From Rhodobacteraceae bacterium XHP0102 (GTDB lineage Bacteria; Pseudomonadota; Alphaproteobacteria; Rhodobacterales; Rhodobacteraceae): a stretch of DNA of 64,000 nucleotides. Below the pieces are notes generated by a model that did not search any database, was not told where the DNA came from, and saw nothing but the letters and a program-made list of their open reading frames with translations. Shown here in pieces: positions 48,658 to 52,201 of the stretch. The stretch spans positions 992,001 to 1,056,000 of the forward strand of contig JAOWLD010000001.1 in the NCBI GenBank assembly GCA_025751475.1, written 5' to 3'. Every line of letters begins with the position of its first letter. Position 1 is the first letter of the stretch. The position numbers were made by a program, and so were the translations under genes.

Positions 48658-50064
48658 TTAAAGCGCGCGCAGCCGCGGCTCCGAATAATGGCGCGCGGGC
48701 ACAAGCAGCCCCTCGGTCAGCGCCCATACCAAGGCATCTACGCGGTCAGGGCTGCCCTGCCCCTCAAATCCCGCCTGCCCCATCTGGCACATTTGATCTT
48801 CCAATTCAGAAAACACGCCCAAATGGGCAACACGACCCTGTTCATAAAGTGCCGCCACGGGCTCTGCGCGGGCCCGTTTGCCCTTGCTGGCCCGCACCGC
48901 CCGATAGGCAATCAACGGGTCAATCTGGCGCAAAATCGCCGCGACCAAATCACCGCCTTGGTTTACCTCCGCCACCAAGCGGCTTGCGCCATGGCGATGA
49001 TAACAGTCCGCCGCCGCCTGCGCCCAAAGATGCGGACGTGCAGCGGCAAGGCTTGCATCCTCCAACACGATGGCCCGCCAATTCTGCGGCGCGCCTTGGC
49101 GCATAACCGCCACCGCAACGATGCCGCAAAGATCCGATCCCTCATGGCCTGTCATAGGCGGATCAACAGCCACAATGATGTCGCAGGACGCAGGGATATC
49201 CGAGACGCGCAAAGCCTCAAACATCGCATGATGCCAAAGCGCGCCTTCGCAATCTTCCAGCAATTCGCCATCCAATTCTTGCCGCCCCAGACGGGTGTTG
49301 CCGTACCGTGTGCGGACCTCCTCCAGAAAGGATGGGGCCAGATAGGCGCGATTGGCTTCTGTTGCGGCGCGGGTAACAACCGTGTTCTCGCGCGCCAAAA
49401 TCCCTCGCAGCAGCGCGATATTACGGGGGGTGGTCGTGACCACCTGCTGTGGATGCGCACCCAATCGCAGCGCAAATTGCAGCATATCCCACGCCTCTTG
49501 CGCATTACGCCATTTCGCCAATTCATCCATCCATGCCGCATCAAATTGCGGCCCGCGCAGGGCCTCTGGATCATGCGCTGAATAGATCTGTGCTTCTGCG
49601 CCATTGGGCCAAAGTAATTTTCTCTCACCCGCAAGAAATTTGGGCCGCCTGTCGGGGGGTGCGCAGGTTAGTATCCCGCTTTCCCCCTTGACCATGACCG
49701 CGACCGCTTGATCGTAGGTCTCGCCGACCAATGCCACACGGGCGGCGCGCCCCTTCTCGCGCGGGTGCGCCCCTTCCACTTGGGCGCGCACCCATTCTGA
49801 TCCAGCGCGGGTTTTGCCCGCGCCGCGACCGCCCATGATCACCCATGTCTTCCAGATTCCCTCAGGTGCGCGTTGATGGGGCAACGCCCAGAAATCGAAA
49901 ATATAGGGCAAGGCGGCCAATGCCTCAGGGCTTAACCCGTCAAGAAACGCCGCGATCGTCTCCTGCGGCTGCGAGGCAAGCCAAGCGGCAGAATATCTCC
50001 TCTCGGGCGCGCTCAAGGTCAAATTCCCCTGTGCGTGCGCCGATGGTTTCGGCTTCAAGCTCAT
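48658..50064 (-). CDS. g2: GTA terminase large subunit (gp2, TerL)
   Basis: This is a 468-residue packaging motor that cuts and pumps host DNA into the capsid. The ATPase domain has Walker A GGRGAGKT (residues 78-85), and AAWMDELAKWRNAQEAWDMLQFALRLG holds the Walker B region. The nuclease domain has VAVDPPMTG and LVAEVNQGGDLV. The ATG at 50062-50064 follows GGAGG with nine bases between and lies 125 bases inside g1, an unusually long overlap for this cluster. Confidence 0.93.
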   Translation of the reverse strand: MSLKPKPSAHAQGNLTLSAPERRYSAAWLASQPQETIAAFLDGLSPEALAALPYIFDFWALPHQRAPEGIWKTWVIMGGRGAGKTRAGSEWVRAQVEGAHPREKGRAARVALVGETYDQAVAVMVKGESGILTCAPPDRRPKFLAGERKLLWPNGAEAQIYSAHDPEALRGPQFDAAWMDELAKWRNAQEAWDMLQFALRLGAHPQQVVTTTPRNIALLRGILARENTVVTRAATEANRAYLAPSFLEEVRTRYGNTRLGRQELDGELLEDCEGALWHHAMFEALRVSDIPASCDIIVAVDPPMTGHEGSDLCGIVAVAVMRQGAPQNWRAIVLEDASLAAARPHLWAQAAADCYHRHGASRLVAEVNQGGDLVAAILRQIDPLIAYRAVRASKGKRARAEPVAALYEQGRVAHLGVFSELEDQMCQMGQAGFEGQGSPDRVDALVWALTEGLLVPARHYSEPRLRAL

Positions 50065-50269
50065 CAAGCTTGCCCTCCAGTGCCAAGGCTTGGATCAAAA
50101 CAGAATTAAGCGCGCGCAGATCTTTGATCAGCGTATCGCCCGATTTGCTGTGCGATGCTTTCAACTCTGCCACCGCATCGGCCAAAGTGATCCGCGCGGT
50201 TTCAAAGGCGTCTCTGGCATCAGCCAGCATCAAAACACGCGTGCCGCGTGCGTCTGATTTTTTCGTCAT
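49940..50269 (-). CDS. g1: GTA terminase small subunit (gp1, TerS)
   Basis: This is a 109-residue mostly helical protein at the head of the GTA cluster (MLADARDAFETARITLADAVAELKASHSKSGDTLIKDLRALNSVLIQALALEGKLDELEAE). In R. capsulatus, gp1 was shown to be the small terminase that feeds DNA to TerL without strong sequence preference. Its 3' part overlaps g2 in another frame. It follows the leader with mini-ORF and terminator. Confidence 0.85.
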   Translation of the reverse strand: MTKKSDARGTRVLMLADARDAFETARITLADAVAELKASHSKSGDTLIKDLRALNSVLIQALALEGKLDELEAETIGARTGEFDLERAREEIFCRLACLAAAGDDRGVS

Positions 50270-50316
50270 GAAAATTCCCGATAATGGCTTAAATGAAAAA
50301 GCCCCCGAGAATGCGA

Positions 50317-50356
50317 AAATAAAAAACGGTCAAACCGCAGCGGCGGCAGACCGTTT
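50317..50356 (-). terminator. Intrinsic terminator/attenuator ahead of the GTA cluster
   Basis: On the minus strand AAACGGTC and GACCGTTT pair, with an inner CCGC/GCGG stem, and are followed by TTTTTTATTTT. It lies about 50 bases upstream of g1 and contains the stop codon of a 14-codon ORF. It would end transcripts entering from the upstream promoter region unless antitermination or read-through occurs. Confidence 0.75.
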
Positions 50357-50374
50357 ACCCAATTCGTCCAGCAT
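50330..50374 (-). CDS. Mini-ORF (14 codons) in the GTA leader
   Basis: An ATG at 50372-50374 follows AGAGG by seven bases and opens the short frame MLDELGKRSAAAAV, whose stop lies inside the terminator hairpin. It could be a leader peptide of an attenuator or the remnant of a deleted gene. The frame is open for 47 more codons upstream without similarity that I recognise. Translation is unproven. Confidence 0.35.
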   Translation of the reverse strand: MLDELGKRSAAAAV

Positions 50375-50381
50375 GACATAA

Positions 50382-50410
50382 CCTCTACATGAGACCGCGC
50401 GGTCTGTCAA
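50382..50410 (-). promoter_or_regulatory. GTA leader promoter region with TetR-like palindrome
   Basis: A perfect TTGACA (50405-50410) overlaps by one base the 14-base palindrome AGACCGCGCGGTCT (50392-50405), which has the form of TetR-family operators. A weak -10-like TAGAGG follows at 17-base spacing, although AGAGG could also be the ribosome site of the mini-ORF. No TetR gene is nearby. Confidence 0.4.
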
Positions 50411-50421
50411 AATATTTATTG

Positions 50422-50436
50422 TAAACAATTGGTTAA
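50422..50436. promoter_or_regulatory. CtrA-like site (TTAA-N7-TTTA)
   Basis: Read on the minus strand, TTAA-N7-TTTA differs in one base from the CtrA consensus TTAA-N7-TTAA. It lies just upstream of the putative GTA -35 element. CtrA is required for GTA expression in R. capsulatus, so position and context fit, but AT-rich matches occur by chance. Confidence 0.3.
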
Positions 50437-50483
50437 TAAGGTGCGCGCGCAGTTCGAAATTCTTCAAGAATTCACAAAATGAA

Positions 50484-50497
50484 TTGATATGTGTCAA
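50484..50497. promoter_or_regulatory. FNR/FnrL-like box upstream of bchE
   Basis: TTGAT-N4-GTCAA differs from the FNR consensus TTGAT-N4-ATCAA in one base. It is centred about 64 bases before the bchE ATG and overlaps the PpsR-type box. FnrL activates bchE-type genes at low oxygen in Rhodobacter. Confidence 0.55.
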
Positions 50498-50509
50498 TTT
50501 AATCTGACA
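50492..50509. promoter_or_regulatory. PpsR/CrtJ-type operator upstream of bchE
   Basis: TGTCA-N8-TGACA matches TGT-N12-ACA exactly and lies 45 bases before the bchE ATG. It has the same arms as the box upstream of hemB. PpsR/CrtJ represses bch genes in air. Confidence 0.65.
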
Positions 50510-50554
50510 CAACACCTGTCACGCTGATCTTACCATAACCGCAGAGGTCAGATC

Positions 50555-52201
50555 ATGCGTATTCTCTTTATCCATCCCAATTACCGCTCAGGCGGCGCCG
50601 AGATTGCAGGGAATTGGCCGCCCGCTTGGGTCGCTTATCTGACTGGGCATCTGCGCCAAGCAGGGTTTGATGACATCCATTTCATCGATGCAATGACCCA
50701 TGAACTCAGCGATGATGACGTTGCCGAGAAAATTGCGGAACTTCAGCCTGACGCCATCGGTGTCACCTCCATCACCCCGTCCATTTACAAGGCCGAGGAG
50801 ATTTTGCGCCGTGCCGCCGAGGTCGCCCCAAACGCGGTGCGTATCTTGGGTGGTATCCACGCCACATTCATGTTCAAGCAAGTGCTGTCCGAGGCGCCTT
50901 GGATTGACGTCATCGTGCGCGGCGAGGGTGAGGAGATCGTGGTCAATCTCATGCAGGCCATCGCCACAGGGCGATATCCGCAAGATCGCAAACGCATTCA
51001 CGGCCTCGCCTTCCGCGAAGGGGATGAGATTGTCGCCACCCAAGCCGCCCCCACAATTAAAAACTTGGATGCAATCAAACCCGATTGGACCATTCTTGAC
51101 TGGGCGAAATATATCTACATCCCGCTCGGGACGCGTGTGGCCATTCCCAACATGGCGCGAGGCTGCCCCTTTACCTGTTCATTCTGCAGTCAATGGAAAT
51201 TCTGGCGCGACTATCGCGTGCGTGATCCCAAATCCGTGGTCGATGAAATCGAAGATTTGGTTGAAAATCATGGCGTTGGCTTCTTCATCCTCGCCGATGA
51301 GGAACCCACGATCAACCGCCGCAAATTCATTGAGTTTTGCGAGGAATTGATCAAACGCGATCTGCCGCGCCGCGTGCAATGGGGCATCAACACCCGCGTC
51401 ACCGATATTTATCGCGACCGTGAATTGCTGAAATTCTATCGCAAGGCGGGCCTTGTCCATGTCAGCCTCGGAACCGAGGCCGCAGCGCAGATGAAGCTGG
51501 ACCGTTTCAACAAAGAGACCAAGGTCGAGGAAAACAAGACAGCCATTCGCCTTTTGCGCGAGGCCGATATCTTCACTGAGGCACAATTCATCGTAGGGCT
51601 CGACAATGAAACCCCAGAAACCTTGGAAGAAACCTTCCAAATGGCGTGGGATTGGCAGCCTGATTTGGCCAATTGGGCCATGTATACGCCTTGGCCCTTC
51701 ACGCCTCTGTTTCAGGAGTTGAAAGATCAGGTCGAAATTTTCGATTTCTCGAAGTATAATTTTGTCACGCCCATCATGAAGCCCGCTGCGATGGAGCGGG
51801 GCGAATTGCTTGATGGGGTGATGAAGAACTACCGCCGCTTCTATATGCGCAAGGCGCTGTTTCACTACCCGTGGCGCGGCACGGGCTACAGGCGGCGCTA
51901 CCTGCTTGGCTGTCTTAAGGCCTTTCTCAAGGCCGGTGTGCAGCGCAGCTTCTACGATCTGGGCAAGGCAGGCTATTGGGGGCCGCAAACCAAGAAAACC
52001 GTGGATTTCCAATTTGACGAAAGCCGCACCTTGGCCCCTGCCCAAATTGCCGACTGGGAAGCCGCAGCCGACCGTGCCGCCCGCGCAAAAGAGCGCCGCG
52101 AGGCCGTGCGTGACCAGATGAAGGCCCGCAATCGGGATCAAAGCGGCGATCAGCCCCCCGATTTGGGCCGCACCCAGGGCAAAGCGGCGGAGGATGTCTA
52201 A
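50555..52201 (+). CDS. bchE: Anaerobic Mg-protoporphyrin IX monomethyl ester cyclase
   Basis: BchE is a B12-dependent radical-SAM enzyme that forms the isocyclic ring of bacteriochlorophyll with oxygen from water, so it works without O2. The 548-residue protein has an N-terminal B12-binding domain ([40 protein letters not shown]). The radical-SAM cluster motif CPFTCSFC follows (Cys204, 208, 211), with [13 protein letters not shown] and [18 protein letters not shown] charged tail rich in Arg, Lys and Asp ends it. It is followed directly by bchJ and preceded by FnrL- and PpsR-like sites. No other bch or puf genes are in the window. Confidence 0.96.

Follow-up and report, generated by a model that had tools for sequence, protein, structure and literature searches.

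The anti-terminators lambda Q, phage 21 Q and AlpA are loaded at a promoter element, and a terminator is found shortly downstream. In Caulobacter, evidence that GafZ anti-terminates was presented by Tran and Le (2024, PMC11150451), and according to the available part of that paper GafZ needs a near-perfect palindrome (an inverted repeat, ZBE) between the -10 and -35 elements and associates with NusA, NusG and NusE. The Caulobacter terminator is located after the first gene, and the CcGTA terminator that was tested is a set of 150-bp repeats (PMC11150451, same part). GafY and GafZ are equated there with the two ends of GafA, and the authors write that GafA of R. capsulatus might have an unrecognised anti-termination activity. 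PMC13236601, in its available portion, cites a 2025 study of anti-termination in the GTA of Bartonella.

As far as the texts available to us extend, GafA of Rhodobacter capsulatus has been published as an activator that contacts omega and not as an anti-terminator. Among five 50-bp probes, GafA bound only that lying 76-125 bp upstream, and this probe, pGTA2, includes the predicted -10 together with the start site, which was confirmed from RNA-seq coverage (Fogg 2019, PMC6363796, available text). The C-terminal domain (GafA 221-382) binds the same place in the promoter; GafA is reported as a dimer, the N-terminal part of which binds on both sides, and the annotation given to its homologues is either DUF6456 or helix-turn-helix protein (Sherlock and Fogg 2022, PMC9638019, available text). 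In their available portions, PMC6363796 makes no mention of a terminator, hairpin, palindrome or stem, PMC9638019 none of a terminator or inverted repeat, and PMC6854486, on the GTA small terminase, none of a terminator. No report of a leader terminator in the GTAs of Rhodobacterales was found in the literature searched, in which subscription journals were scarcely covered.

Organisation of the GTA leader in the window

The window analysed here is a 64,000-nucleotide stretch of the genome of Rhodobacteraceae bacterium XHP0102. A first-pass annotation had described a CtrA-like site, a promoter element overlapping a palindrome, a 14-codon ORF and an intrinsic terminator at the front of its GTA cluster, and all of these elements were found to be present, on the minus strand, in front of terS. 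The features are as follows; counts of leaders refer to the 83-leader set described below.

50449-50444, minus strand: CGnnCG pattern ahead of the promoter, possibly a second copy
50436-50421, minus strand: CtrA-like near-site TTAAC-N6-TTTAC, one base off the pattern
50410-50405, minus strand: -35 element TTGACA; TTGA in 83/83 leaders, the C in 99%
50405-50392, minus strand: 14-bp palindrome AGACCGCGCGGTCT between the -35 and -10 elements, with a one-base overlap with TTGACA
50401-50396, minus strand: core CGnnCG inside the palindrome, in conserved columns; proposed loading element for the C-terminal (GafZ-like) domain of GafA
50387-50382, minus strand: -10 element TAGAGG, separated from TTGACA by a 17-bp spacer; the family consensus is TATA in the same columns
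50375-50357, minus strand: initial transcribed block CATGCTGGACGAATTGGGT, about +1 to +19 from the predicted start, including the ATG of the mini-ORF
50374 (ATG) to 50332-50330 (TGA), minus strand: 14-codon mini-ORF MLDELGKRSAAAAV, an ORF reading
50356-50324, minus strand: intrinsic terminator hairpin, dG -18.5 kcal/mol, with covariation in the 83 leaders
50326-50321, minus strand: T-run TTTTTT of the terminator, the first bases of which are also paired in the fold
50311-50275, minus strand: second hairpin before terS, a fold prediction
50269-49940, minus strand: terS (GTA g1), at the head of the cluster; assigned from its position and because it overlaps terL
50067-48658, minus strand: terL (GTA g2), Terminase_6N/6C
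48727-47471, minus strand: portal gene, a GTA cluster member
Upstream of the leader, plus strand: bchE, divergent (TIGR02026, E 3e-255), then bchJ

No Pfam or NCBIfam match was obtained for terS of the window. The terminator, which ends about 50 nt before this gene as first annotated, is real and not a local oddity: the hairpin has a z of -4.35 at its -18.5 kcal/mol, and 0/200 shuffles were equally stable. A simple terminator scan found 5 sites in 1.5 kb versus 1.9 in shuffles, which is weak evidence by itself. The promoter-plus-block pattern has a single occurrence in the window and was seen in 0/100 shuffles, and since the leader is conserved, with this one pattern match in the window and matches to the leader model in the family genomes, chance is ruled out. 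The terminator is also not the end of an upstream gene, because bchE is divergent in the window.

Between bchE and the GTA leader lie what we take to be an FNR-like site, TTGATATGTGTCAA (50484-50497), and presumably a PpsR/CrtJ-like site of the form TGT-N12-ACA (50492-50509). Sequence resembling this stretch is visible in the congeners G002 and G003. In the genus of the window, an oxygen-controlled region may possibly be common to the divergent GTA and bacteriochlorophyll gene.

Conservation of the leader in the genus and the family

The genus was compared in four genomes, G000 (the window's own) to G003. In G002 and G003 the whole leader is kept before terS and beside a divergent bchE, with a T-run of seven T in both and a compensatory pair change in the hairpin of G002. 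The palindrome carries one mismatch in these two genomes (AGAGCGCGCGGTCT), and the perfect form is thus not kept even within the genus; the 14-codon ORF is retained in the three GTA-bearing congeners. Genome G001 is without terL, leader, gafA and bchE together, all of which the other three genomes have. The two leader-model matches in G001 are both weak, and the better one is located at a gene-end terminator. The best second matches to the leader model in the genus (E of 1.6e-7 in G002, 7.5e-5 in G001 and 1e-3 in G000) were rejected as GTA leaders, being an ordinary terminator behind a gene which we take to be carD-like.

Beyond the genus, alignment A1 was built from 31 loci, comprising the three of the genus and 28 others top-ranked by TerL similarity, two of them with ends extended by hand. 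The 28 loci have TTGAC, a -10 and a block like CAWGCTRGAAGAAGTGGGC, which is also approximately the family consensus of the initial transcribed block, at 33-35 nt from TTGAC, and nearly all have a GC-rich hairpin with a T-run. A covariance model of the leader unit, R1, matched 206 of 295 family genomes at E<=1e-5 (counted by eye) and 230 of 295 at E<=0.1, where about 30 matches are expected by chance; about 30 of the 295 genomes scanned had contributed to the model. Several genomes gave a further match besides the best one, mostly unlisted. In the order, 207/292 genomes matched at E<=0.001, with the listed members coming from this one family. Conversely, 89/295 family genomes were without a match at E<=1e-5 and 65/295 at 0.1, and a TerL match was found in 263/295, a comparison in which the R1 scan used stricter filters than the TerL scan. 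In 40 held-out TerL-anchored loci, R1 matched 34 at E<=3e-9 and one more at 1e-4; the five without a full-length match comprised one recognisable remnant, with fragments or nothing in the others. This set was made up of 40 of 41 consecutive rows of the TerL listing, and G099, whose row listed a stop, was omitted.

For the analysis of covariation, 84 sources were fitted to R1, of which 83 matched; the 84 included 18 picked for scoring in the R1 family scan and omitted the five unmatched held-out loci. Standard pairs occupy 95.6% of 1034 stem cells in the 83 leaders, and compensatory changes on both sides were seen in 13/13 stem pairs. Double changes in the hairpin amount to 150 cells versus 40.5, and the covariation score is 0.467 versus 0.187 in shuffles (0/500) and <=0.154 in slid controls, the alignment being fitted to the structure, which favours this score. 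Hairpin energies have a median of -22.4 kcal/mol with z<-2 in 81/83 leaders, and at least 4 T were found in the seven tail columns in 78/83. Because the hairpin is kept by compensation, its structure matters. The first pass had also proposed that a terminator at the front of the cluster requires read-through for expression, and this is favoured as the best reading, because hairpin and U-run before terS are kept by compensatory change family-wide.

The promoter-plus-block pattern was found in at least 117 stretches of the genome collection and in 97 of IMG/VR. Among the 214 pattern matches listed, terL is located downstream in 195, with a median distance of 348 nt. In fourteen of the remaining 19 the stretch behind the pattern is <=513 nt long; the last five extend for 1.2-2.5 kb without a TerL and carry other genes or reduced clusters. 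The leader unit therefore belongs to the GTA cluster, with promoter, spacer core, block and hairpin with U-run in fixed order before terS. This count rests on the pattern matches; the position of the R1 family-scan matches upstream of TerL was compared by eye. No phage record with an archetypal GTA was found among the best 30 of 207 TerL-search rows.

An unpaired, conserved 5′ block with an intrinsic terminator behind it is also how a small RNA is built, and the unit could produce one of about 55-60 nt that ends at the terminator and acts in trans with the block as seed, GTA mRNA being the read-through product. A search of Rfam, however, gave 0 matches in the window at 49900-50800 at E<=1 and nothing in 13 relatives at the gathering score, and the unit stands before GTA genes in nearly all pattern matches listed, the exceptions being mostly short stretches. 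As a replacement for the reading as a leader terminator we regard a small RNA as decidedly improbable; as an addition to it, such an RNA is possible.

The terminator might instead be an insulator that stops stray read-through from upstream, with GafA acting purely at initiation and strongly enough to exceed the terminator. GTAs are harmful when leaky, and other genomes may have a co-directional gene ahead of the leader. Against this, the hairpin follows the GTA promoter, so that the GTA's own transcript would be cut too, the upstream bchE is divergent in the window, and the conservation extends to some 19 transcribed nt for which an insulator has no need. We consider an insulator unlikely.

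Outside the order, terminator-like hairpins were found at -500..-120 from TerL in 4/20 loci, with 0 to 1 in shuffles; the script used is insensitive, since it recovered only 15/40 Rhodobacteraceae loci versus 35 by the covariance model. L355, from a family outside the order, has the best R1 match of the 20 loci (21.6 bits), with a promoter and block and a poor hairpin, and L362 and L366, both from one family outside the order, score about 15 bits and have a -10, a short block, a hairpin and a T-run. From their sequences, these three loci are possible distant relatives of the leader.

The 14-codon ORF before terS is present as first annotated (50374-50330, minus strand), and sensing through its translation had been proposed as the control of the terminator. 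Its ATG, an apparent Shine-Dalgarno sequence, a stop placed at the hairpin and its retention in the three GTA-bearing congeners are in keeping with a leader-peptide attenuator. In the family, however, the codon at the start position is ATG in 41/83 leaders and another codon in 39, the block not being found in 3, and in those with a start codon the frame runs from 3 to 147 codons. The presumed ribosome site, AGAGG, sits inside the -10 element TAGAGG and hence upstream of the predicted start. In relatives, the region upstream of g1 has thus conserved the hairpin across the family and not the mini-ORF; the first ~19 transcribed nt are conserved although the ORF is not. One alternative RNA stem, pairing the 5′ block with the U-tract, was tried as a single candidate antiterminator and had no covariation, which favours a protein switch over an RNA switch. 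Attenuation by translation of the mini-ORF is thereby largely refuted, and we hold it to be very improbable.

A second conserved hairpin, CTCGTGCGG...GCATGAGAGG, is located between the terminator and terS in about half of the leaders (for example L060, L029 and L163), with the arm CTCGTGC in 43/83 and GCATGAG in 44/83; the corresponding alignment, A4, holds 52/83 leaders chosen by eye. In these relatives a possible terS ribosome site coincides in part with the 3′ arm. The genus of the window has a different hairpin at this place.

The spacer core and the upstream sites

The TTGACA was correctly described as overlapping the 14-base palindrome, by one base at 50405. Within the palindrome, the four columns of the CGnnCG core are conserved in the 83 leaders (C.89, G.98, C.99, G.92). 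An exact CGNNCG is located in the spacer of 70/83 leaders and is absent from 13/83; in A1 it was found in 25/31 loci, genus included. The palindrome had been read as a TetR-like operator, or alternatively as part of the scar of a deleted TetR-regulated gene, and 14 bp of palindrome overlapping a -35 would suit a TetR-family operator. Yet none of the five neighbours scanned encodes a TetR-type protein, the palindrome is imperfect in the congeners, and the core, together with the leader, recurs at GTA promoters across the family, which speaks against a local scar. Either form of the TetR explanation seems to us hardly credible.

A second CGNNCG was found at -48..-20 from TTGAC in 50/83 leaders versus 8.35 in shuffles, and in 32/83 its distance above the spacer copy is exactly 44-45 bp. 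This upstream copy may be a second contact for the GafA dimer, an idea drawn from the dimer and the two-sided binding of its N-terminal part described in the available text of PMC9638019. Support for the CtrA-like site is divided: a full TTAA-N7-TTAA is located upstream in 17/83 leaders versus 0.12 in shuffles, but the site in the window is one base off, and CtrA failed to bind the GTA promoter of R. capsulatus according to the available part of PMC6363796.

GafA and the leader

The window's genome has a gafA candidate, a protein of 377 aa (G000:C1:972491-973621, from the CtrA-site search) located 69 kb from the leader. DUF6456 was matched at residues 231-366 (E 1.8e-55), and an N-terminal helix-turn-helix was matched weakly, below the cut-off. 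A CtrA site is located upstream of the gene. GafA was surveyed in 50 genomes chosen by hand. A match was found in 26/26 genomes with a leader match at E<=1e-9 (13 with a TerL-tail fusion, 3 without a TerL hit and 10 ordinary), the copy of G058 having an internal stop, and in 14/14 genomes with TerL but without a leader match, where some copies are split or partial. Among ten genomes with neither a TerL hit nor a leader match better than 0.02, two had a GafA match; this group includes G017, with a leader match of 0.029, and G179, whose GafA match is weak and has a stop. Therefore GafA follows the GTA. The GTA genomes that lack a leader match and still have GafA (14/14 surveyed) count against a leader switch, and GafA is therefore not strictly dependent on a recognisable leader.

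The TerL-tail fusion gene was found in 13/295 family genomes at E<=1e-130, one per genus in 13 genera. It is an open frame that joins TerL, to about residue 184, with the C-terminal half of a GTA tail protein (GTA_TIM, Phage-tail_3). All 13 genomes have the leader and a GafA match (that of G058 with a stop). The fusion loci are L373-L384, and the leaders include L066, L067, L068 and L050. Of 12 loci read, 10 have a single frame of 774-870 aa and one runs off its contig; the fusion of G058 is cut short by a stop at 418 codons. A joint motif, AAW.DE (AAWVDE-like), was found in 11/12 loci, and the TerL N-terminal half ends there. The pN/pS of 0.47 is not usable, because synonymous differences are nearly saturated. 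By its sequence the fusion locus looks like a long-kept reduced GTA locus. Whether the internal deletion is ancient or happened more than once, it is surprising that the frame has stayed open in such a number of genera.

In R. capsulatus, strain SP108 (L163) has the leader: relative to the first ATG of terS, TTGAC starts 129 bp, the -10 106 bp and the block 95 bp upstream, the hairpin starts at 76 bp and the U-run ends at 44 bp. Set against these positions, the GafA-bound probe would span the spacer motif, the -10, the start and the block and would end at the start of the hairpin, provided that the first ATG is the start codon from which the published distances were counted and that SP108 agrees with the strain used. 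Because the published start falls inside pGTA2 (PMC6363796, available text), transcription in R. capsulatus begins upstream of the hairpin and not downstream of the terminator. The known GafA target and the present locus thus have in common the promoter region and a DUF6456 protein, and GafA binds where the spacer motif, -10, start and block lie; the published account differs from the proposal below in being one of activation with omega contact.

A possible leader switch of the GTA cluster

We consider it probable, on the pattern of sequence conservation, that the leader is a switch of the Rhodobacteraceae GTA cluster, in which transcription starts, stops at about +55 and reads on in a GafA-dependent, Q-like manner. 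RNA polymerase would start at the TTGACA promoter and transcribe the conserved ~19-nt block, and the intrinsic terminator would stop it in vivo about 55 nt downstream of the predicted start; with the polymerase stopped there, the cluster would therefore stay silent although transcription is initiated. Once GafA has been produced, its GafZ-like C-terminal half with DUF6456 would be loaded through the CGnnCG between -35 and -10. The loaded GafA would then join the early elongation complex, probably aided by the conserved first 19 nt, and the polymerase so modified would pass the leader hairpin and continue into terS and the long operon. By eye, the block is not a clear -10-like or pause consensus.

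The nearest likeness is to GafY/GafZ of Caulobacter crescentus. Both have a GTA cluster, a homologous regulator (here the 377-aa DUF6456 protein as GafA/GafZ homologue) and a long untranslated leader, and both have an inverted repeat between -35 and -10, here a perfect palindrome in the window and the core in 70/83 leaders; the CGnnCG core occupies the promoter position where GafZ loads in Caulobacter. Both have a terminator within the transcription unit, here a predicted one, but at a different place: after the first gene there, and as a short intrinsic terminator directly behind the start site here. GafY and GafZ are moreover separate proteins, whereas GafA is one protein, the anti-termination activity of which we infer. 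The Rhodobacterales leader is accordingly put forward as a candidate for the missing anti-termination target. With lambda Q, phage 21 Q and AlpA the proposed switch would share loading at a promoter element, a conserved early transcribed sequence and a near downstream terminator; unlike in the Q-type loci, the gafA candidate is unlinked, 69 kb from the leader and not beside the promoter, and GafZ is reported to be without similarity to these three anti-terminators.

A wider reading is that GTA gating in Rhodobacterales is mainly post-initiation, by a dedicated family-wide switch made up of a GafA-loading spacer element, a block at +1 to +19 that serves for loading or pausing, and an intrinsic terminator, all derived from ancestral phage late-gene control, with GafA a processive anti-terminator of a non-Q type and an off state that emits an RNA of about 55 nt; we regard the chances for and against it as even.

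GTAs kill the cells that produce them, and how most cells keep them silent is a long-standing problem. A terminator right behind the promoter, kept by compensation across the family and also in R. capsulatus, would be a simple physical answer and offers a testable place. The leader model is in addition a sequence mark for many Rhodobacteraceae GTA promoters, which helps to find intact and reduced GTA loci. If the switch is true, the anti-termination reported for GafZ of Caulobacter would extend to Rhodobacterales, as was suggested earlier for GafA and not demonstrated.
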